A stretch of 27,479 nt of DNA, taken from IMG/VR virus record IMGVR_UViG_3300027861_003180, positions 1 through 27,479 of that record; one strand, written 5' to 3'. The notes beneath the pieces were generated by a model that worked only from the letters and a program-made list of their open reading frames with translations, did no database searches and was not told the DNA's origin. Positions 3-18,730 of this stretch are shown piece by piece. Made by a program: the position numbers and the translations under genes. Source of the DNA: a virus. Positions within the stretch are counted from its first letter, which is position 1. The number at the start of each line of letters is the position of its first letter.

Positions 3-1376
3 GCTGCCATTGACGGCAAGCTGTATCCGCTTCACATGTGCGGCGACACGAACACCGGCATGAACTGGGATGGCTGCAGTCACGGAGTCGTGGACGACAG
101 CCAGGTATCCTGTCCATGGACTCGCACAGGCGAGACTGTCACGGCTCAGGCCTGCGTTCTAGACGAGTGTGACGGCTATGTCCTGGATACGACCAAAGAG
201 CCATATGTCCTGATCGCTCAGATCAATGGCCAGTGGTACATTGTTAATGTGATTAGTGCTGATGGGTTGCCTGACACGGACGACATGGGGTACTTGCCAT
301 GTGAGGCCTGCTGTGATCTTGGGGTTGGCACCATTGAAGCAACTATAGATGGATGTGGCGACTTCGATGGCGTGACCTTTACGATGTACGGAGGCAGCGG
401 ATATTGGACTGGATTCGCTGAGATACCCAATGGAATCTTCTACTTCAATCTGTCGTGCAGTATAAACGTCACTGATGCTGAGGATTGGGCAGCCACTGGC
501 GGTTGCGGAAACGCAGTTGCTCCGGACACTCTTGAGGTTGTCTGCAATCCTTCCTCAACCGGCACTGGGACAGGAACAGGCACAGCAACAAGTACTGCTG
601 ACGGAAGAATGAGTGGCTCTGCGGAGTTTTCTAATTCCGGGTGCTCAGAGTGTAGCTCTGGTCCAATTACTGTGAATTTCCATTCTGTCCCGGGTCGTGC
701 CCGAGACGAGTGTCGCACAATGACAAGGACGGGTCAGCTCGTTACTGCCGAGGCTTGCGGTCTTGATGACCTGGCTATCGGTGACGAAGTTATTCTGGCT
801 TCTGTCCCAAAGCTTTCGATCAGCGAGACAGGTACTGGCACGGGTCCGACCGAGGGATCACAAGAGCACATTATTCAGGTGTGCCGTGGCGAAGGGGAAT
901 GCCAGCCTTGTCCTCCCCCGCCGCCAGGTGACCCGATCGACTGCTGTGACCTGACTGATGACACGGTCCCCTTGACGCTAACAGGAACAGTCAGCGTAAG
1001 CAGTGCAGTCTATGGCTGCAACTGCACATCCAAGCCAATCAGTTTCGCTTATCAGGCAGGCTCTAATCCACCAGAGTGGCACCAGACCGGCATTATCGAC
1101 TGCGAGAACGCTACCGGAACCTCGGTTGAACTGAGTAACCTTTCTGGAATGGTAATAAGCTGTAGCGGTGGCACAGGCACAGGAACAGGCGGGGCTGACT
1201 TCTTCTTGACTCCACCAGGCTGCTATGCCGACCCGGCCGTCGAGTCTACTTCTGGTCAGTGCGAGCCACTTACCATGGAATGGGAAGACATAGACATTCA
1301 AGGCTGCTGCGGTGTTATTCTTGATCCAAATGATTTTGGCGTACCTATCCTTATGACGGTTGAGGTATCAGAATGA
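3..1376 (+). CDS. Cys-rich, Thr-Gly-repeat structural-type protein (5' partial)
   Basis: The reading frame is open to the left edge (first full codon at 3), so the N-terminus is missing; an internal ATG lies at 36. The visible chain has several dozen cysteines, many as CC or CxxC, and three Thr-Gly runs (near residues 173-184, 270-276 and 375-382 counted from the ATG at 36) that look like linkers between beta-rich modules. A module recurs: 'CPWTRTGETVTAQAC' near residue 26 resembles 'CRTMTRTGQLVTAEAC' near residue 228, and blocks beginning 'CCDL' occur twice. A Pro run (PCPPPPPGDP) sits mid-chain. I do not recognise a family. Its position before tail-type genes suggests an exposed virion protein, with the disulfide potential stabilising it outside the cell; this is inference. 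It overlaps the next gene by 4 nt (ATGA). Confidence 0.8.
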   Translation, partial: AAIDGKLYPLHMCGDTNTGMNWDGCSHGVVDDSQVSCPWTRTGETVTAQACVLDECDGYVLDTTKEPYVLIAQINGQWYIVNVISADGLPDTDDMGYLPCEACCDLGVGTIEATIDGCGDFDGVTFTMYGGSGYWTGFAEIPNGIFYFNLSCSINVTDAEDWAATGGCGNAVAPDTLEVVCNPSSTGTGTGTGTATSTADGRMSGSAEFSNSGCSECSSGPITVNFHSVPGRARDECRTMTRTGQLVTAEACGLDDLAIGDEVILASVPKLSISETGTGTGPTEGSQEHIIQVCRGEGECQPCPPPPPGDPIDCCDLTDDTVPLTLTGTVSVSSAVYGCNCTSKPISFAYQAGSNPPEWHQTGIIDCENATGTSVELSNLSGMVISCSGGTGTGTGGADFFLTPPGCYADPAVESTSGQCEPLTMEWEDIDIQGCCGVILDPNDFGVPILMTVEVSE

Positions 1377-3601
1377 GTGATGATTTTGACTGCGATTCCC
1401 TTAAAGGCCTGAAGAGGATGCTTTGCCAGGGATACAAATACGACACTGAGGGGAATGAGATCGAGCTCACCCCGAATGAGCACGCCAGATGGATGGCTTC
1501 GTTTCAGGGAAAGCCTGTCCCTCCCCGGGAGAAAGTCGTTCGCGAGCCAATCCGGCGACAGCCCCCCAAGAAAGAAGGAGTCGGCACAGAGTTGGAGCGG
1601 CTATTTCATACCGTTCGTTTTGCGACCTGCGGGGCCTGCAAGGCTCTTCGTGACCAGATGAACGAGTGGGGCCCGGACGGCTGCAGAGAACATCGGGACG
1701 AGATCATAGACAAGCTAAAGCAGAACGCTCGCAGGAGAAAGATACTGCGGCATGTGTTTTCTGAGAGTGCGGCTCATTTATTTCTTGACCAAGCAATAAC
1801 CAACGCTGAGCTTCGAGAAGACGGTATGGATCCGCCTGTTAACATCTTCGAGAATGTGATTGACCGAGTCTCAAAGGTCTTCTCGCCTAAAAAAAAAGTA
1901 GATAAGTTGCCTCGATCTCTTGTTTGGTCCTATGGCGTGACGACAGTTCCGTCACGCGAGAAGGAGTTGTTGCCAAGGACTCTTGAGTCTCTTGCTTCTG
2001 GCGGATTTGACAGTCCTCACCTGTTTATTGACGGATGCGAGGACCTTTCAAGATACGAGAAGTATGGACTCCCAATGACTGCCCATACCCAGAACGTCAG
2101 AACCTTCGGCAACTGGGTAATGGCCCTTTGGGAACTGTACGTCCTGAACCCTCAAGCTGATAGATTTGCTATCTTCCAGGATGACATGCTGACGTACCCT
2201 AACCTCAGAGATTATCTCGACTCCTGTAAGTACCCTCACAATGGGTATTTAAATCTCATCACTTCTCATGAGAATACTAAGATTGCCTCAAGCAAAAGCA
2301 TTGGCTGGCACAAGGCGAGCCAGCGTGGGCGAGGAGCTGTCGGGCTAGTGTTCAGTCGCGAGGCCGTGACTACTCTATTGTCTCACGATCACATGGTTAA
2401 TCGACCTAAGAGCAGAAGAGATGGACACCGGAAAGTTGACGGTGGAATTGTTGAGTCGTTCCGTAAAGCTGGCTGGGCAGAGTACATACACAACCCAAGC
2501 CTTGTGCAGCATATTGGTCACGTTTCTTCGATGGGAAACCCTCAACACCCTGCAGTAACTCTCTGGAACGGAGAAGAGTTCGACGCTTTAAGGTTTACGG
2601 AAGGCAAGCCAGTTAAAAAGAGAAGGACGAGCCCGGCTGTAACTCTTGTGGGATATCGCTGCAGGACTGGACTTGGGGAGCTTAACCGGCAGATTGCCAC
2701 GTACTGCGACATAGAAAACTGGCTCATAAAAGGCCATAAAAACAAGCCTGAAAATGGATCGCCTTCCGAGAGAGGCGACATTAACCTGGCTAGGGGCGAA
2801 TCTAATGTCTCGACAGTAATCGATCAGTCTGACGTGATCCTTTTCTGCGAGACCCCTTACTTCAAAGATCTCACTTCGGTTGCTAAGTCGAAAGGCAAAA
2901 GGGTCGTGTGCGTCCCGATGATTGAATGGACGCCCAGAAAGGGATGGGTAAAGGATGTTGATTTGTTTATATGTCCGACGGTCCAATGCTACGAGAAGTT
3001 GAAGACTGATGGGCTTCCGTGCGTCTTATTTCCTTGGCCGGTCGACTCATCCAGGTTCAAGCACAGAAGCAGGAACAAGTGCGAGAAATTCCTCTTTCTT
3101 AACGGGAACGGTGGATGGAATGAGCGAAAGGGACTAGCTCCTATTGTTAAAGCCACTAAGCTATGGCCAGAGTTTCCTCTAGTCGTACGTAGCCAGAGGA
3201 ATGTACGAGGCCTGAAGATCGACTCGGGAGAAGTGGCTTCGAATCAAGATCTCTACTCACTCGGAGATGTGCTAATATCTCCCCATACCGTGGATGGACT
3301 CGGCCTTGAACCCATGGAAGCAATGGCCTGTGGAATGCCTGTAATCTCAACCGATGGTCAGCCTTGGAATGAGATACCTTCGATTGGAAAAATTCAATGC
3401 GAAACATCTCAGATGAAAATCGCTAGAGACATGGACTGGCATATATGTGATCCGCAATCGATCGTCGATATCTGCAAGAGATTGCTAGGCCAGGATATAT
3501 CAAAAGAGAGCGATTCTTCTCGGGAGTGGGCTGAAAGCCTTTCGTGGGAAAGTCGATCAGGGGAATTCTTCAATCTAGTTGTAAATGGAGCCGCGATATG
3601 A
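1373..3601 (+). CDS. Two-domain glycosyltransferase (GT-A-like plus GT4-like GT-B)
   Basis: 742 residues; the start is fixed by an ATGA overlap with the preceding gene. Residues 1-180 are a charged N-terminal region with a possible metal site (C86, C89, C104, H107). Residues about 183-400 look like a GT-A fold: a 'YGVTTVPSRE' first strand, 'FIDG', then 'IFQDDM' at 267-272 as a DxD-type metal/nucleotide-sugar motif, and 'GYLNLIT'. Residues about 421-740 resemble the GT-B/GT4 family, with the signature 'GLGLEPMEAMACGMPVIST' at 642-660, which in that family binds the donor phosphates. Two catalytic domains in one chain suggest sequential sugar additions, perhaps on a virion protein or a host surface polymer. 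The following sulfotransferase, overlapped by 4 nt, fits a glycan-building pair. Donor and acceptor cannot be told from sequence. Confidence 0.82.
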   Translation: MSDDFDCDSLKGLKRMLCQGYKYDTEGNEIELTPNEHARWMASFQGKPVPPREKVVREPIRRQPPKKEGVGTELERLFHTVRFATCGACKALRDQMNEWGPDGCREHRDEIIDKLKQNARRRKILRHVFSESAAHLFLDQAITNAELREDGMDPPVNIFENVIDRVSKVFSPKKKVDKLPRSLVWSYGVTTVPSREKELLPRTLESLASGGFDSPHLFIDGCEDLSRYEKYGLPMTAHTQNVRTFGNWVMALWELYVLNPQADRFAIFQDDMLTYPNLRDYLDSCKYPHNGYLNLITSHENTKIASSKSIGWHKASQRGRGAVGLVFSREAVTTLLSHDHMVNRPKSRRDGHRKVDGGIVESFRKAGWAEYIHNPSLVQHIGHVSSMGNPQHPAVTLWNGEEFDALRFTEGKPVKKRRTSPAVTLVGYRCRTGLGELNRQIATYCDIENWLIKGHKNKPENGSPSERGDINLARGESNVSTVIDQSDVILFCETPYFKDLTSVAKSKGKRVVCVPMIEWTPRKGWVKDVDLFICPTVQCYEKLKTDGLPCVLFPWPVDSSRFKHRSRNKCEKFLFLNGNGGWNERKGLAPIVKATKLWPEFPLVVRSQRNVRGLKIDSGEVASNQDLYSLGDVLISPHTVDGLGLEPMEAMACGMPVISTDGQPWNEIPSIGKIQCETSQMKIARDMDWHICDPQSIVDICKRLLGQDISKESDSSREWAESLSWESRSGEFFNLVVNGAAI

Positions 3602-4173
3602 TTGTTTGCTCTGGAGTAGGGTATTCTCACATTGGAAGAACTGGCGGGGAATCTGTAAGGATTGCCTTGATGACGAGTGGCTTGCCATGTTACTACATCG
3701 GTAAGATTTGGGAGCCAGAAGAAGACATAAAAAGCAACAGTAACCGATATCGACCGCACTATCCTCCGAGCATGGTGTCCTCGGTCATATCTCCTGACTT
3801 GAAGCTAGTGACCTGTGTCAGAAACCCATGGGACCGATACGTAAGCTGGTTTCATTGGCATCTAGGAAAACGAAAAGAGCAACCAGAATGGCCTGTCTTT
3901 CTTGAGAAGATCCTTGACGAGACGAACCCTCGTCGAATAACCACCCAGAAGGAATTCATTGAAGGTATCGACTGGTCGTTGATAATGAGATTTGAGAACC
4001 TTCGAAGCGAATGGCTCAAAGTCCAGGAGATGATGGGGCACAAGATTGAGCTCCCTCATTCAAATCAAGGCGAAGGAAGGTCTTCATACCAAGGCTACTA
4101 CTCTCCTCGGCAAAAGAAGGCTGTAGCCAAATCTGAGTCTTACGTTATCGACCGGTTCGGCTACAAATTCTAA
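3598..4173 (+). CDS. Sulfotransferase (Sulfotransfer_2-like, PAPS-dependent)
   Basis: 191 residues. An upstream in-frame ATG at 3544 lies inside the previous gene; the ATG at 3598 overlaps that gene's TGA (ATGA) and places the catalytic motif right at the N-terminus, as usual for the family. 'HIGRTGGES' (11-19) matches the 5'-phosphosulfate loop (HIPKTGGTS type) and 'RNPWDRYVS' (75-83) matches the 3'-phosphate loop RNPxxRxxS. 'RFENL' (131-135) and the C-terminal 'YYSPRQKKAV...DRFGYKF' also fit. Family knowledge: transfer of sulfate from PAPS to a hydroxyl, often on a sugar. Translational coupling to the double glycosyltransferase suggests it sulfates the glycan made by that enzyme. Confidence 0.88.
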   Translation: MIVCSGVGYSHIGRTGGESVRIALMTSGLPCYYIGKIWEPEEDIKSNSNRYRPHYPPSMVSSVISPDLKLVTCVRNPWDRYVSWFHWHLGKRKEQPEWPVFLEKILDETNPRRITTQKEFIEGIDWSLIMRFENLRSEWLKVQEMMGHKIELPHSNQGEGRSSYQGYYSPRQKKAVAKSESYVIDRFGYKF

Positions 4174-12347: not shown

Positions 12348-12914
12348 CTATTGTGGTCCGACTACGCCCTCGACTCCCCACAGGGCAATAGCTCGGCACT
12401 GGCTGAAGTCACTCAAGGTAAACCGTATCGTCTTGACGCCATATGGATTTAGCTGAGCCCGCAGAGTTCTTCCCAGCTCCTTGTCGATCGCTTTTCCATT
12501 GTCCCTCAGATGAGAGAACTCGTGCTGCACGATCACTTCCTTGACGGCTGCCAGGGAAAGGTCGCGTATCGTGTCTTCGTAGTCGTAGCATTCAGTCAGT
12601 AGCTTCACAACGTTGTTGACTTCATAAACCAGAATGCCCCTGACTCCGATGGTCTTCTGATCCTTGGTTGTCAAGTACTGTGGCTGCAGATTGGTCGTCT
12701 GCCTCTTGACTGGAACAATCTCGCATTCAGTAACCAGGGGCCAGTAGACATGAATGCCTGTCCTGAATATTCCATTCCCCGGCTTCATCTCGATAGCGTT
12801 ACTGCCGTTGCGAAACCTCACTCCTGCGTGTGTGGACCTCACGAGTATCAGCTGAGGTATCGTCTTGAGGATCGCCCTGAATACGTCCCCCAGCCAGCTT
12901 AGTGCAGATTCCAT
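12348..12914 (-). CDS. SPFH/Band 7 (stomatin-prohibitin-like) domain protein
   Basis: 188 residues, ATG with GGGAG upstream. An amphipathic/hydrophobic N-terminus ('WLGDVFRAILKTIPQLILV', 7-25) precedes 'HAGVRFRNGS', then 'GNGIFRTGIHVYWPLV' and 'LTTKDQKTIGVRGILVYEV', the order of strands in SPFH domains, ending with the helix rich in 'DLSLAAVKEVIVQHEF'. Cellular SPFH proteins form large membrane-attached oligomeric cages or microdomains and often guard membrane proteases. In a phage this could remodel or protect host membrane. The long coiled-coil tail of host prohibitins is absent, so this is a minimal form. Sits directly downstream of the helicase gene. Confidence 0.8.
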   Translation of the reverse strand: MESALSWLGDVFRAILKTIPQLILVRSTHAGVRFRNGSNAIEMKPGNGIFRTGIHVYWPLVTECEIVPVKRQTTNLQPQYLTTKDQKTIGVRGILVYEVNNVVKLLTECYDYEDTIRDLSLAAVKEVIVQHEFSHLRDNGKAIDKELGRTLRAQLNPYGVKTIRFTLSDFSQCRAIALWGVEGVVGPQ

Positions 12915-12943
12915 GATCGATCTCCCTGATTAGACAGGAGGCA

Positions 12944-15787
12944 CTATAGCAGATCCTTCTTCTGCACGTCACGAACTTTCTGACTCCACAGGTATTCATT
13001 GTTCACAGGCGGCGTCATCGGTAAGAATGTGACTGTACCGTTGTTTTCCGCCACAGCGACCCGCTCCTTGCCCTTGCTGTCGGTTGTATTGAACACGGTC
13101 AGATGCCTGTTCTTGTTCTTGTACTGCGACAAAGCCTGCTTGAAGGTCATTGCCTTGTTGCTTCTGCTCTTGCTGGACGGGAAATAGATACTGAACCAGG
13201 CCTTGGTGGCGTCCGAGGTGGTCTTCGCCTTGCGTTTGACGTACGGGCCTTTTACCTGACGAAGAGTGCCGTCATGCTGCAGGATATTGACTCCGCTATT
13301 GCTGCTCTTGTGGCCGCACTCATGACACTCAGGTCCTGATAGTCGCATTGCTGAGCAGCGAGGACAGATGATCGGCTCTTCGCTTTTTCCTTCCTTGCGG
13401 TCCTTCAGGGTCTGATCGGTGAGGGACTTCGACGAGTCGCTCAGATCCCAGATGCGGTCGTCATTTAGGCTGCCATGCACGTGGCAATTTGCCCCGTGAT
13501 CCTGACAGTTATGAACAAGTTTATCGCTTACTGTGAATCTTTGCCTTGGGCCGCAATTGACGATGTCCCACACCTCTTGCTTTTCCCCCAAGCATTCTGT
13601 ATCTCCTTTGCTGACATTCCTCGCCTCAGGAGCTTTCTTATGTGTCCCGCAGTGTATCCTACTTCTGGATATTTTTCTTTCATTTCCTTGAGAGTATTCG
13701 CATGATCTAAGTGAGGATTCGCCTCCCCCTTCGATGCAATCTTCGACCAACTCTCTTCTATGTCTCGGTAGGTTGCTCCGTTTCTTATCAGCTTGTGTAT
13801 GTGCGACTTTGAATACCCCACGTGAGGAGATTCCCTCATGAAAGTATTCAACTTTGAGTTCGGCGACCTCTGGCCTCTTTCCCCTTTCTGGTACCTCTCC
13901 CACGAATTCAAGATGTCTTGACCAGAAAGACCCTTCCTGAACAAAGAGTCTATGGTATGCCTCGAATAGCCAACTGATGGAAAGTCTCTCAGGAATGTTC
14001 GATACCTTGAGGATGGACACTGGCGACTCCTCTTGTTTTTCGCCTGCTGGCTGGCAGTTGCCCATCTGAGGTTCCCAGGCTCGTAGTGTCCCTCGTTGTC
14101 TATCCTGTCTATGCTCAAACTTCGGTCCTCTGGAATCCCTAGATTCTTTGCTATCCAGCAAGCCCCTTCGTACACTGAAGGGAAGCGAAACTCTATTCCT
14201 CTCCCTCCATATAGCTCGTAACCAACGTCCTCGACTCTTGTGCATCTGTGCTTTTGATGCTGGACCCTTCTCCATAGCCATTCTGGGCAATGAGGACCGA
14301 ACTTGTTCATGCAATGGGCACACCCTCTCGATTTCGCTCTCTTCATTGCGTAAAAACGTTTTTGTGAGCTTTTTCCACATTTTTCGCAATGAACCTGCAC
14401 CTTCAGGCTTGATCCGGTCCCCTGTGTGCTTCTGCCTGATATCCTCAGACAGCCTGACTGGAACCCTACCCATTCCGGTTCTAGCAATCCTTCTCTTGTA
14501 ACTCTTCGCCGTTTCGATCGTTTCCCATCCATGACTTGTGTAAACCTCATGCTCAGGCGTTGCTGTTACTCCATCCCACTCAATGACTTTCTGCACACCC
14601 TTGCAGATTGCACCGTCATGGGAAACAAACTCTACTCCGTCCCACACTTTGTCTGCCAGTGAGACATCTTGAATATTTACGAGACCTCTATCAGTTAAAA
14701 CCTTAGAGCCTCTCGCGATGCAAGTTACGTAGTCTAGGCTGTCGTGTGCCCTTAACACTCGCCCACCGGCCTGTAGGAACATTTTCAGGCTGCCGTAGGA
14801 TGTAGCAAAGATCAGATGGCCGACTTGTGGCAAGTCGATACCCTCGGTTAACAGAAACCTTGAGCTGATGATTTTAATCTCGCCGTTCCGTACCTCGTCG
14901 AATAGCTTCTCGCGGTTCTTGATCTTCATGGAGTCTTCCATGACCGGTCGGCCGTCCGCGTCCTTCTCTCCGTAATAGATATGCTTGGCGTCGATGTGAG
15001 CGGACGGGATCCCGGCGTTCAAAAACATGTCTGTGATCGTAATGCTTCCACGCACGGAAGGAGCGAACACGATAGTCGGACGCTGCATCGGATTCAGGCG
15101 ACGGTAGTGCGGTAGGATATGCCCGAATACGATCTCGGGCTTCATATTCTCGTTTACTGTCTTCTCTGAGTACTCTCCCTCAGCGTTTCGCTTCATGCTC
15201 ATGTAGTCCGGCATGGTCGGACAGTACTCTTTACAGATCAGGTGAGCCCCACACTCGCGGAGTTCTGAGTTAATGCCAGCCAACACAAGCGTGTCATAGA
15301 TATGAGAAATATCGAGCGGAGTCGCGGTCAAGCCACAGAAAACCACATTTGGATTGCTTTCCTCATACTTCTTGATCAATGCAAGAGAACGAGCAGATCG
15401 TTCGTTGTGAGCCTCATCAAAGAAGACGATGTCTGCGTTGTGTATATTCCAACTCGGGTTCTTCCCTAGCGTTCTCACGCCCTCTGTGGGAGTCATGGAT
15501 ATCTGAAGAGGTTTGTCGAAATCAGTCTTGTAACCAGACGCACGCATCCCGGGGTCAAGACCTAGCCCCTCTAGTACCTTGCGAGACTGCTCGGCCAGAC
15601 TCTTGCGATTTACAGAGAAAACCGTCTTCAGGTTTCTGCGATTAGCTTCCTTGATTATCTCAGATGAAAGCCTTGTCTTGCCGGCCCCGCAAGCACCCAC
15701 AGTGCAGATTCTCTTTTTGCCTGCATCCACATGAGCCCAGAACTGGTCAAACGCTTTTTGTTGGTGAGGCCACATAGGAAAGGTCAT
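12944..15787 (-). CDS. SF2 DEAH-type helicase interrupted by an intein
   Basis: 947-residue precursor; ATG at 15787 overlaps the upstream endonuclease stop by 4 nt. Helicase motifs: Walker A 'GACGAGKT' (31-38), DEAH box 'FFDEAHNE' (122-129), 'GLTATP' (152-157), motif V region 'LLTEGIDLP' (312-320) and motif VI 'QAGGRVLRA' (339-347). The intein runs C356-N760, inserted nine residues after motif VI. The C-extein restarts with Cys761 and holds a zinc ribbon (C808, C811, C821, C824) and a basic C-terminal domain. Removing the intein leaves a 542-residue helicase. Role: ATP-driven duplex or D-loop unwinding in phage replication or recombination; the ERF, ParB-like and exonuclease genes in the same operon support this. 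Splicing is required for an intact helicase because the insertion separates the motor from the C-terminal domain. Confidence 0.88.
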   Translation of the reverse strand: MTFPMWPHQQKAFDQFWAHVDAGKKRICTVGACGAGKTRLSSEIIKEANRRNLKTVFSVNRKSLAEQSRKVLEGLGLDPGMRASGYKTDFDKPLQISMTPTEGVRTLGKNPSWNIHNADIVFFDEAHNERSARSLALIKKYEESNPNVVFCGLTATPLDISHIYDTLVLAGINSELRECGAHLICKEYCPTMPDYMSMKRNAEGEYSEKTVNENMKPEIVFGHILPHYRRLNPMQRPTIVFAPSVRGSITITDMFLNAGIPSAHIDAKHIYYGEKDADGRPVMEDSMKIKNREKLFDEVRNGEIKIISSRFLLTEGIDLPQVGHLIFATSYGSLKMFLQAGGRVLRAHDSLDYVTCIARGSKVLTDRGLVNIQDVSLADKVWDGVEFVSHDGAICKGVQKVIEWDGVTATPEHEVYTSHGWETIETAKSYKRRIARTGMGRVPVRLSEDIRQKHTGDRIKPEGAGSLRKMWKKLTKTFLRNEESEIERVCPLHEQVRSSLPRMAMEKGPASKAQMHKSRGRWLRAIWRERNRVSLPFSVRRGLLDSKESRDSRGPKFEHRQDRQRGTLRAWEPQMGNCQPAGEKQEESPVSILKVSNIPERLSISWLFEAYHRLFVQEGSFWSRHLEFVGEVPERGKRPEVAELKVEYFHEGISSRGVFKVAHTQADKKRSNLPRHRRELVEDCIEGGGESSLRSCEYSQGNERKISRSRIHCGTHKKAPEARNVSKGDTECLGEKQEVWDIVNCGPRQRFTVSDKLVHNCQDHGANCHVHGSLNDDRIWDLSDSSKSLTDQTLKDRKEGKSEEPIICPRCSAMRLSGPECHECGHKSSNSGVNILQHDGTLRQVKGPYVKRKAKTTSDATKAWFSIYFPSSKSRSNKAMTFKQALSQYKNKNRHLTVFNTTDSKGKERVAVAENNGTVTFLPMTPPVNNEYLWSQKVRDVQKKDLL
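13508..14722 (-). mobile_element. Intein in helicase, 405 codons, with out-of-frame endonuclease insert
   Basis: Block A begins at C356 ('CIARGSKVLTDRGLVNIQDV'), followed by 'DKVWDGVEFVSHDG'; block B is 'DGVTATPEHEVYTSHGW' with the TxxH motif; block F is 'VWDIVNCGPRQRFTV' and block G ends 'KLVHN' with Cys as the +1 extein residue. These are all class 1 intein splicing elements. The Hint halves (about 75 N-terminal and 25-35 C-terminal residues) are separated by about 300 residues of Arg/Ser/Glu-rich, low-quality sequence with no LAGLIDADG or HNH motif. That linker is the shadow translation of the endonuclease gene at 13528-14550, which lies in the +1 frame. The intein frame has no stop anywhere in it. 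Confidence 0.9.
13528..14550 (-). CDS. Homing endonuclease nested out of frame inside the intein
   Basis: 340 residues in the +1 frame relative to the intein, same strand. A zinc knuckle (C55, C58, C77, C80) precedes a nuclease core (about 85-175) containing 'YELYGGRGIEF', 'LSIDRIDNEGHYEPGNLRWA' and 'QQAKNKRS'. This is the pattern of phage HNH/EDxHD-type endonucleases (as I recall, the I-Bth0305I-like family). The C-terminal part has three DNA-binding-type repeats (about 183-217, 234-268 and 286-321) of the form 'P.VGYS..HI..L.R.G....I..SW'. The first ATG (14550) is inside intein block B and the stop (13530-13528) falls within block G, so both ends overlap splicing sequence. The true start is not settled: no good ribosome site is seen before 14550 or 14532. 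Translation could be from an internal start or by frameshift. Confidence 0.8.
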   Translation of the reverse strand: MRFTQVMDGKRSKRRRVTREGLLEPEWVGFQSGCLRISGRSTQGTGSSLKVQVHCEKCGKSSQKRFYAMKRAKSRGCAHCMNKFGPHCPEWLWRRVQHQKHRCTRVEDVGYELYGGRGIEFRFPSVYEGACWIAKNLGIPEDRSLSIDRIDNEGHYEPGNLRWATASQQAKNKRSRQCPSSRYRTFLRDFPSVGYSRHTIDSLFRKGLSGQDILNSWERYQKGERGQRSPNSKLNTFMRESPHVGYSKSHIHKLIRNGATYRDIEESWSKIASKGEANPHLDHANTLKEMKEKYPEVGYTAGHIRKLLRRGMSAKEIQNAWGKSKRCGTSSIAAQGKDSQ

Positions 15788-16710
15788 ACTTCATTCCTCT
15801 TGCTGATTCTCTTCTCGCCTACAGGCGTCTCGATTGCGTCCTCTACGCTCCACCCACTTCTGATCCTAACACCGAGCGTGGCCCCTTTCATTCCAATTGC
15901 CTCAGCCCATTCAGTAATGCATTTCCTCTCCCCCTTGTAATCCAACAAGACGTTCGTGGATACGTTCCTTGCCTGCTCAGTAGCTGTCGCCCATCGGCAG
16001 TTTCCCGGCTCATAGTTTCTGTTTCCGTCAATGCGATCGATCGAATGCTTCGGAGTTGGCTTCCTTCCCATGTCCTCAATGAAGTTTTTGTACTCAGCCC
16101 ATCGGTCGCATACGGTGATGCCCTTTTCTCCGTAAATCCGATAACTCTTGTTTGTTGGATCTCCACATCTCCTTCTCATGTTTGACCAAGCCTCATGCTC
16201 AGGCTCTATCTCTACGCCTCTTCTCTTTCTTTTTTCTCCGCCGCATCCACAACTTCTCACGTCTTGGGAGCCAAGCCTTGTTGAGCTTACGACCCTCATG
16301 TTTCCACAGTCACAAATACACTTCCAGAAGTTTCTCTCGGTTTTCCTTCCATCAAACGCTAGAACGAACAATCTGCCGAACCTCTTCCCCAGTAGGCTTT
16401 TGAAGTTTGCGTTAGTGGGCGTCTTGACGGTGTCGTACTTCCCTGCAGGCTTTTCCTTAGCCTTTCTTTTGACTCCTTTAGTTCCAATCCTGTTAACCCT
16501 AGCGCAGCCACAACTGTTTGTCGTCTTCCTGTTCAGCTCCTTTTGGCTTCTGACACACATTTCCCCACAGTCGCAAACGCACATCCAGTAGCTATGTCCT
16601 TTCCTATTTCCAGCAAAAGCAAGAACAAATAGCAGGTCAGTTCTCTTGCCAATAGGACTCTTGAAACGCGGACCACTCGGGAACTTTAAGTTGTCATACA
16701 ACGCGGTCAT
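15784..16710 (-). CDS. Second HNH/EDxHD-type homing endonuclease with duplicated zinc modules
   Basis: 308 residues from the ATG at 16710, chosen for GGAG 9 nt upstream; the longer frame begins with a GTG inside a hairpin loop. Two tandem modules: residues about 17-72 and 104-160 share 'GKR...LFVLAF.G' and the Cys set 'CVCDCG...SCGC' (C44, C46, C48, C67, C69) against 'CICDCG...SCGC' (C131, C133, C135, C154, C156). The core (about 171-250) has 'EAWSNMRRRC', 'RIYGEKGITVCDRW' and 'HSIDRIDGNRNYEPGNCRWA'. The end has an 'ITEWAEAIGMKGATLGVRIRSG' helix-turn-helix-like unit. Same family as the endonuclease nested in the neighbouring intein. Its TGA overlaps the helicase ATG, so it sits exactly at the helicase gene boundary without disrupting it. 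Probably a free-standing mobile gene that cuts the helicase locus of related phages. Confidence 0.85.
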   Translation of the reverse strand: MTALYDNLKFPSGPRFKSPIGKRTDLLFVLAFAGNRKGHSYWMCVCDCGEMCVRSQKELNRKTTNSCGCARVNRIGTKGVKRKAKEKPAGKYDTVKTPTNANFKSLLGKRFGRLFVLAFDGRKTERNFWKCICDCGNMRVVSSTRLGSQDVRSCGCGGEKRKRRGVEIEPEHEAWSNMRRRCGDPTNKSYRIYGEKGITVCDRWAEYKNFIEDMGRKPTPKHSIDRIDGNRNYEPGNCRWATATEQARNVSTNVLLDYKGERKCITEWAEAIGMKGATLGVRIRSGWSVEDAIETPVGEKRISKRNEV

Positions 16711-16739
16711 AAACTCTCTCTCCATTCTCTCGCAAACGA

Positions 16740-16774
16740 AAGGCAGGGCCTTGCATTGCACAAGACCCTGCCTT
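16740..16774 (-). terminator. Long hairpin upstream of the endonuclease-helicase genes
   Basis: AAGGCAGGG (16740-16748) pairs with CCCTGCCTT (16766-16774), with an inner CTTG/CAAG stem, a C-A mismatch and a 7-nt loop. On the minus strand it is followed by TCGTTTG, a modest T-rich tail, so it may be a weak terminator or attenuator between the Tat-like genes and the endonuclease gene. The rest of the 152-nt gap (16711-16862) holds no convincing gene. Confidence 0.5.
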
Positions 16775-16862
16775 CTTCAAAATCAGCGCCGAGTTTCAGC
16801 TTGATGCCTGTGCCTCAGCGGCTGCGGATTTGCTTACTCTTGCCGAGTGAAAACTTTCCAGT

Positions 16863-17397: not shown

Positions 17398-17566
17398 CAT
17401 TGACTCCCGTGAAATACATAACTGCATGGAAAGCCGTGAAGCCCGAACAGACAACAGCGGCGACCACATTGATGTTGTATGTCTCACCTATGAAGCACGC
17501 CAGTAGATTAAAGAGCCCTAAGAGCCCATCAAGTATTGCAAGCTGCCCATGAGTCTTACGATTCAT
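17387..17566 (-). CDS. Small two-TM membrane protein (59 aa)
   Basis: ATG at 17566 has GGAAAGG at about 9 nt. Two hydrophobic segments: about residues 8-29 ('LAILDGLLGLFNLLACFIG') and 33-54 ('INVVAAVVCSGFTAFHAVMYF'), with a short polar turn and a tiny acidic C-terminus. Small two-TM phage proteins are sometimes holins, but no endolysin is adjacent, so membrane anchoring or a complex with the Tat-like neighbours is equally possible. Overlaps both neighbours (11 nt each). Confidence 0.65.
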   Translation of the reverse strand: MNRKTHGQLAILDGLLGLFNLLACFIGETYNINVVAAVVCSGFTAFHAVMYFTGVNDES

Positions 17567-17981
17567 CACTCATCGCCTTTCCGATTGGATCACCAACCTT
17601 CTTTGACAATCGCACGTGGATTATTCCATTGAAGCTGATTGGGTCATTCAGTACATCACACTCAAGCTGCAGCTTTAACTCTGCCATCGCCAGCTCAGAC
17701 TTAGATTGATGCAGACTGATGATTTCTCGAGTGAACTGCTGTTCGCCGTATTTCTCGATCGCTTCCAGGAGCAGATTAGACGAACCCCAGTACGTTTTCC
17801 AGTCAGATTCCACGTGATCGATTCGGTGTCTCTTTTTGCCTTTCAGTGGCTTCCGGCGAATCCGTCTTTTGAACTGTTTCTTGCCTATGTAGAACGCACC
17901 ACTTTCGTGAGTGATTCGGTAAACGAACCCGAAATGGTCCATCGGGTCGTCCGGCACGTTTACCCATCGACTTTCTGACAC
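17556..17981 (-). CDS. GIY-YIG family endonuclease (homing type)
   Basis: 141 residues if the GTG at 17981 is used; this GTG overlaps the ParB-like gene's TAG (TAGTG). An ATG at 17942 is the alternative. 'GFVYRITHESGAFYIGKKQF' (18-37) is a GIY-YIG core with the YIGK signature, followed by a basic stretch ('KRRIRRKPLKGKKRH') and 'ESDWKTYWGSS', then 'EKYGEQQFTREII'. This resembles free-standing phage GIY-YIG endonucleases of the Seg type. The catalytic Glu probably lies in the helical part (ELAMAELKLQLE). It sits as an extra cistron between replication genes, consistent with a mobile gene. Confidence 0.8.
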   Translation of the reverse strand: MSESRWVNVPDDPMDHFGFVYRITHESGAFYIGKKQFKRRIRRKPLKGKKRHRIDHVESDWKTYWGSSNLLLEAIEKYGEQQFTREIISLHQSKSELAMAELKLQLECDVLNDPISFNGIIHVRLSKKVGDPIGKAMSDES

Positions 17982-18730
17982 TAGCTCACTTCTTTCGCAC
18001 ACTGGTCTTCCCACCGCTTAATGTCTTCTCCAATGGCAGAGATAGCACCAGGCACGTCAAGGTCCTGCACACCAGGGAACGCCTGCTTTGCCTTCATGAC
18101 GGCACGTGACAACTTCCCCAGCAGCCCTTGTACTGACTCAAACACCATCAAGGGACTCGGCTCCGTGGCATTCAAATCCTTCACTGCCTGTATTGCCCCG
18201 GACGCGGTTGCCTCTTCGTCACCAAGTATCTGATCCCTGAACCCTGGCGACTCGTCCTCTCCTTCGTCGATCGTCTCTGCAAGCTTCGCGGCATGGCCAG
18301 CCTGGCTTGGAGTTACGTCGTTGGCTTCTGCGTAGTCCTTGATTGTGCCGCCCATCTCGCGAGCATCAAGGACTTCCTGGCCCATTTCGTACTGTTCGCT
18401 GAGTGTCGGGTTATTTCTCCTGCCCTTCTGGTGGTTGCGAATCCACTCGACAACTTCCTCTTCCGTGGAGCCGCTCAGTTCCGACACGTCCTTGAAGGAC
18501 GGAGCCTCTACGTCGACATTGCCCTCATGCTCCTGCCAGATCGCGTACCGATGATGACCATCCACGATCACTTCTTCGCCGCCCTCTGACAGGTGATACA
18601 GGATCGGTGACAGGAATCCCCCTTCCTGCAGGATGTTCATCTCAAGCTGAGACGACTCCTTTTCAGTAAGCGGACTCAGCGTGTCCCGGTAGACGGGATT
18701 GATCATCATTCTATCTGCAAGCTTAGGCAC
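17981..18730 (-). CDS. ParB/sulfiredoxin-fold nuclease-like DNA-binding protein
   Basis: 249 residues from a GTG at 18730, chosen because AAGGAG lies 7 nt upstream; the longer frame begins with TTG inside the ERF gene. Residues about 14-85 form a ParB N-terminal domain: 'LSPLTEKESSQLEMNI', 'SPILYHL' and the signature 'DGHHRYA' (57-63), the counterpart of GERRxxA. It is followed by 'TLSEQYEMGQEVLDAREMGG' and an HTH-like 'TIKDYAEANDVTPSQAGHA', then an acidic linker and a helical C-terminus. Members act in segregation, regulation or as CTP-dependent or nuclease DNA-binding factors. Position next to ERF suggests a role in replication/recombination rather than plasmid-style partition, since no ParA is present in the window. 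Confidence 0.82.
   Translation of the reverse strand: MPKLADRMMINPVYRDTLSPLTEKESSQLEMNILQEGGFLSPILYHLSEGGEEVIVDGHHRYAIWQEHEGNVDVEAPSFKDVSELSGSTEEEVVEWIRNHQKGRRNNPTLSEQYEMGQEVLDAREMGGTIKDYAEANDVTPSQAGHAAKLAETIDEGEDESPGFRDQILGDEEATASGAIQAVKDLNATEPSPLMVFESVQGLLGKLSRAVMKAKQAFPGVQDLDVPGAISAIGEDIKRWEDQCAKEVS

Follow-up and report, generated by a model that had tools for sequence, protein, structure and literature searches.

The window analysed here is a whole IMG/VR viral contig of 27,479 bases. On its minus strand, an uninterrupted open reading frame (ORF) of 947 aa (12944-15787) encodes an SF2/ResIII-type phage DNA helicase precursor with an intein. Helicase profiles were matched in both Pfam (ResIII, E = 1.3e-16; Helicase_C, 1.6e-9) and PHROGs (phrog_16, DNA helicase, 6.8e-51). 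All parts of this locus lie on the same minus strand. The N-extein of 355 aa (14723-15787) ends just past helicase motif VI (QAGGRVLRA...DYVT) and is followed by the intein frame from Cys1 to Asn405 (13508-14722), which reads CIARGSKVLT...TATPEHEV...VWDIVNCGPRQRFTVSDKLVHN, and then by the C-extein (12944-13507), whose first residue is Cys+1 (CQDHGANCHVHG). The intein boundaries proposed in a first, sequence-only reading of this DNA proved to be exact, Cys1 being at 14722 and the codon of the last residue, Asn, ending at 13508. The residue set of a class 1 intein was complete: the N-terminal Cys; the TxxH of block B (TPEH, intein residues 55-58; 14549-14560), in which T and H do not vary across alignment A3/A4; the block F Asp (VWDI, residue 386; 13565-13567), also invariant in A3/A4; and the penultimate His and terminal Asn of block G (13508-13513), followed by Cys+1, with the Asn and Cys+1 invariant in the intein alignment. 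Removal of the intein in silico joins DYVT to CQDHG. In 566 records, the joined exteins matched a phage helicase in one place over 80% or more of their length, and the best matches of the unspliced 947-aa protein covered at most 45% of its length. The intein is an in-frame insertion at a conserved site of the helicase, and intein-free homologues exist. A group I or group II intron was rejected, as an Rfam scan of 12900-16800 gave no match at E-values up to 1. Judged from its residues and predicted fold, the insert is most likely a class 1-like, cis-splicing intein.

A second gene is nested wholly within the intein, in the +1 frame of the helicase strand. It encodes an HNH endonuclease of 334 aa plus stop (13528-14532, minus strand) with a predicted start at ATG 14532; an alternative ATG at 14550 gives an HNH ORF of 340 aa (14550-13528). 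The earlier reading had the endonuclease running from within block B to within block G: the strand and the +1 frame stand, and the stop codon (13530-13528) comes after block F and before block G begins. The start at 14550 that it named, alongside a nearby one, is less likely, as this ATG lacks a Shine-Dalgarno sequence and is absent from the nearest relative (L017), the shared ATG being 14532. Position 14532 is therefore probably the start codon in the window. Pfam and NCBIfam scans gave no name to the nested protein; PHROGs did, with E-values of 2.5e-21 and 1.7e-18 against HNH families. The protein contains a zinc-binding CxxC...CxxC motif (14311-14388), whose four cysteines were invariant in alignment A2, and an HNH core, YGGRGI ... 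SIDRIDNEGHYEPGNLRWA (14034-14295), assigned from the PHROG profiles, the alignment and a weak match to the PacI HNH enzyme (Z 5.3); the invariant positions of the HNH alignment were the zinc cysteines and the DR...Y..GN core. Three helical repeats at the C-terminus (13573-14004), recognised from the sequence, the alignments and the helices predicted by AF2, are probably DNA-binding.

Predicted folds of the two frames were compared. The AF2 model of the intein frame, built from an alignment of 24 relatives, reached a pLDDT of about 95 only at model residues 11-90 and 390-415, and these confident halves form a Hint fold (Z 17.7, rmsd 2.0 over 120 residues, against the Mtu RecA mini-intein). The approximately 300 residues between them mostly had a pLDDT of about 40, so that the splicing halves lie at the ends and a shadow peptide without structure lies between. 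The model of the HNH frame had a mean pLDDT of 82. Its best structural match was the PacI enzyme mentioned above, and a Foldseek search against the PDB gave no match below E 1. Because the structural match is weak, the HNH assignment comes mainly from the profile matches and the invariant zinc cysteines and core.

Several neighbouring genes should be mentioned. Directly upstream of the helicase, and overlapping its start by ATGA, is a free-standing HNH gene (15784-16761, minus strand; phrog_374, E = 9e-77), which is distantly related to the nested HNH (the cores share 30% identity). A SegE-like GIY-YIG endonuclease is encoded at 17556-18014 (minus strand; Pfam, 6e-29). Together with the HNH genes, it brings the number of homing-type endonuclease genes on this 27-kb contig to at least three. 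A large glycosyltransferase gene with a GT1-like C-terminal domain (1373-3601, plus strand) and an ORF resembling a sulfotransferase (3544-4173) are unusual cargo beside structural genes. The ORF at 36-1376 (plus strand), which has many Thr-Gly runs, encodes a repeat-rich putative structural protein.

To what extent this layout occurs elsewhere was examined in a survey of relatives. When the HNH protein was used as a tblastn query, matches fell within genes annotated as DNA polymerase I in phages of Streptococcus and Gardnerella; they lay, however, in the +1 frame of these genes. The survey was therefore seeded on the intein N-terminus alone, a seed that is blind both to the presence of an HNH and to its reading frame. 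It comprised 80 loci kept from 224 confirmed relatives in viral contigs, together with fetched isolate phages and 32 bacterial-genome loci. Among inteins in one ORF, counting near-identical records, the HNH was in the +1 frame in 101 and in the +2 frame in nine, namely eight plus Salmonella phage EnJE6, for which the C-block was read by eye. None of the approximately 110 HNH-bearing inteins surveyed had the HNH in the intein frame, and some 18 mini-inteins of 110-185 aa had no HNH. The layout is present in viral contigs, in isolate phages (those of Streptococcus, Gardnerella, Caulobacter, Shewanella and Salmonella, and APSE-1) and in prophages. Helicases and family A polymerases serve as hosts, with insertions at many different sites; in some polymerases (L010, L065 and L080) there are two of these inteins, and each has an HNH of its own. 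The closest case to the window is L017, identical in kind in helicase, insertion site and layout, with a shorter HNH that has about two C-terminal repeats versus three in the window. A search for related loci with the whole 947-aa protein found none, and the same search with the 449-aa joined helicase found one contig only, that of L017.

A sequencing indel that had shifted the endonuclease out of the intein frame was rejected, because the layout recurs in more than 100 inteins from viral contigs, isolate phages and bacterial chromosomes. The observation is confirmed as real, and it is not a one-off. Another arrangement to be considered is a fractured-gene or split-intein locus, in which a free-standing endonuclease gene lies between separately translated intein halves. 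Such loci are reportedly found with some phage split inteins, and the first intein of L001 looks similarly broken. However, the window has a single stop-free ORF, as do the complete copies examined with three exceptions (the broken L136 and the broken first intein of both L001 and L107), which makes this arrangement highly improbable for the window. Stops in the linker frame, which the first reading had regarded as evidence against itself, are thus exceptional, and its claim of one continuous cis-splicing intein with an endonuclease open in another frame is supported on both counts. As for individual loci, the first polymerase intein of L001 (1125-1904) has intein-N, HNH and intein-C in three successive frames, possibly by an indel or as a split form. 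In L136 (3501-4430; Eubacterium plexicaudatum), the polymerase intein is frame-shifted near its start, which would seem to reflect either decay of a prophage copy or an error in sequencing. The Jerseyvirus polymerase intein of EnJE6 (L100, 4001-4900) has its HNH in +2. In addition, the intein N-terminus matched 147 Salmonella phage records, many of which are annotated merely as intein-containing polymerase or DNA polymerase.

We then analysed whether the two frames are maintained. For the stop test, the synonymous codons of the HNH gene were shuffled without altering the encoded protein or the codon usage of the gene. In a set of 51 members that share less than 75% DNA identity, each required to have one ORF (few failed this requirement), the intein frame across the HNH gene contained no stop, compared with 406 expected, and the third frame of the same members contained 604. 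In the window alone, 14.2 stops were expected over 300 codons and none was present (stop-free shuffles, 0 of 2000). All ten free-standing HNH relatives had at least two stops in each of the two other frames. For the selection test, changes in pairs of relatives were classed by their effect in both frames. The dNN/dSN of the HNH protein was 0.03-0.13 in most close pairs and 0.3-0.45 in distant pairs, whereas the dNN/dNS of the shadow peptide was mostly 1-1.9 and noisy in close pairs. For the pair of the window and L017 the dNN/dSN was 0.54, a weak measure of selection on the window HNH because this pair is near saturation. The strong constraint on the HNH, with usually none on the shadow peptide, indicates that the HNH is a working gene and that the intein frame is a filler there which must stay open. 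Thus, the suggestion that both frames are kept open agrees with a stop-free length far beyond chance; as regards constraint in both frames, it was found for the HNH at the protein level, and the middle of the intein frame was selected only against stops.

It might be argued that the openness of the shadow frame is accidental, or that the HNH gene is a relic that no longer functions. Shadow frames can indeed stay open through GC-rich sequence and codon bias, and few stops were expected in two of the +2 members (0.8 in L010_1382 and 0.9 in L096). The absence of all 406 expected stops, the dNN/dSN values down to 0.03 in close pairs and the stops in the free-standing controls nevertheless leave chance or decay with hardly any likelihood.

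Signals that could allow the HNH to be translated on its own were searched for within the intein, a start site being counted when an ATG in the HNH frame had a pairing energy no weaker than -6 kcal/mol. A textbook site at intein nt 145 (for example, aaaggaggtaatcgagtATG) is present in many +1 members, and other +1 members have alternative start positions at intein nt 133, 184-190 or 202-223. Among 43 +1 members, a ribosome-binding site (RBS) with ATG could be identified for the HNH frame in 34, for the intein frame in three and for the other frame in none, and the signal of the +1 members exceeded that after synonymous reshuffling of the intein codons (combined p 1.5e-7). No significant signal could be observed for the eight +2 members as a group (p 0.16). 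An RBS-like site was also present in 10 of 17 HNH-less mini-inteins, compared with 34 of 43 HNH-bearing inteins (p 0.10). Because these mini-inteins retain the site, part of the signal may be dictated by the intein codons or be vestigial. In the window, the position at which family members usually start (intein nt 145-148) is followed by a stop, and a Shine-Dalgarno-like GAGGT (14544-14548, minus strand), made by the block B 'HEV' codons, is located 11 nt before ATG 14532. This motif is weak, with a duplex energy of -6.3 kcal/mol that is no better than in synonymous shuffles (p 0.35).

The weak RBS of the window, and the fact that most members use +1, could also fit programmed +1 ribosomal frameshifting, which would yield a fusion of N-extein, intein-N and HNH in place of a protein from internal initiation. 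We consider this unlikely: many members have strong AGGAGGT...ATG sites, +1 and +2 classes both exist, and the fusion product would include the N-terminal half of the helicase. Internal initiation is thus the route adopted in our proposed mechanism.

Presence/absence patterns provided further information on the mobility of both elements. In two contigs from one metagenome (L027 and L029), the second intein occurs with and without an exact 531-nt HNH segment, with 99.5-99.8% identical flanks and a 4-nt microhomology at the HNH junction. In the intein tree the HNH-less forms were scattered, corresponding to at least eight changes, and in the HNH tree the +2 members were on one side with modest support (73/54). 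At the level of the whole intein, Streptococcus phages whose PolA proteins are approximately 85-89% identical either have the intein (Javan255 and Javan101) or do not (Javan181 and Javan639). Such presence/absence patterns are what bears here on cleavage of the empty site and on homing, both of which are inferred. Out-of-frame HNH genes do not by themselves imply splicing. The ShiLan domain of actinobacteriophage methylases, a hidden HNH endonuclease, is exactly such an insertion with no splicing domain (Arsenault, Gosselin and Gogarten, 2025; PMC11855218), and by analogy the extra peptide might simply be tolerated in the mature helicase. However, the ends of the present insertion form a Hint domain, its nucleophile, TxxH, HN and Cys+1 are conserved across many sites and host genes, and HNH-less mini-inteins persist at similar sites; insertion of the ShiLan type is therefore quite improbable here.

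Taken together, we propose that the window very probably contains a cis-splicing mobile intein whose HNH homing endonuclease is overprinted out of frame and made separately by internal initiation. Ribosomes starting at the helicase ATG would translate through the 405 intein codons, after which the two intein ends would fold into the Hint domain and excise themselves, with the middle as a floppy filler peptide. Other ribosomes, starting within the intein coding region at the predicted ATG 14532, would produce the HNH as a separate polypeptide, which could cut helicase genes that have no intein and so lead to its being copied into them. Over the length of the HNH gene, the only thing preserved in the intein frame would be its freedom from stops. 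A broader generalisation, to which we give slightly less than an even chance, is that of a large and so far unrecognised class of 'overprinted inteins' in phages, in which the HNH is always out of frame, the RBS is encoded by the block B region of the intein, the HNH is gained and lost as a discrete module, and splicing and homing share one stretch of DNA but are performed by separate polypeptides.

Such a layout would decouple splicing from the endonuclease: the polypeptide that splices would not have to accommodate an endonuclease in its fold, and the endonuclease could be independent of the full host protein. On the other hand, each gene restricts the mutations of the other, because any stop arising in the shadow frame would cut short the polymerase or helicase that hosts the intein. 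A natural overlap of 140-300 codons, with one frame selected only for openness, offers a clean case for the origin and persistence of overlapping genes, and it could be tested in isolate phages that carry an overprinted intein, such as Caulobacter phage RW. Automated annotation mostly names just one of the two overlapping genes.

Inteins are normally described with the endonuclease in frame, as one polypeptide. Canonical endonuclease-bearing inteins (PI-SceI, VMA; LAGLIDADG or HNH) resemble the present ones in that Hint halves flank an endonuclease and mobility by homing is proposed. They differ in that the endonuclease is fused in frame, whereas in the phage inteins described here it is in another frame and predicted to be a separate protein. 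The fractured genes that Dassa et al. reportedly described in 2009, with split inteins and an endonuclease between the halves, share an endonuclease with its own gene apart from the splicing polypeptide; their halves are stop-terminated and spliced in trans, whereas the intein here is one continuous frame. The DNA polymerase P45 of APSE-1 (GenBank NC_000935) has an intein of the same family, with a +1 nested HNH, P46, annotated as an overlapping CDS. That record gives two CDS and states neither an intein nor a mechanism, and its annotated P46 ATG is later than the beginning of the open frame. In the literature covered, which was incomplete, we found no paper describing an intein with an out-of-frame endonuclease. 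As cited in PMC11855218, a bioRxiv preprint (Gosselin, Arsenault and Gogarten, 2025; 10.1101/2025.01.02.630785) reports that overlapping frames are frequent in actinobacteriophages; its title, 'Actinobacteriophage Inteins: ... Non-Canonical Architecture', refers to actinobacteriophages only, and it may describe part of the out-of-frame HNH architecture. The earlier suggestion that the arrangement may be undescribed is thus weakened by the annotated HNH of APSE-1, by the published sister arrangement without an intein and by this possibly relevant preprint, and there is real uncertainty about priority. The ShiLan domain is similar in its out-of-frame HNH within a stop-free host frame, its patchy distribution and a start codon within the insertion, but it has neither a splicing domain nor a recognised RBS (PMC11855218). 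In the inteins described here, the Hint domain could remove the shadow peptide, and an RBS is present in many members.
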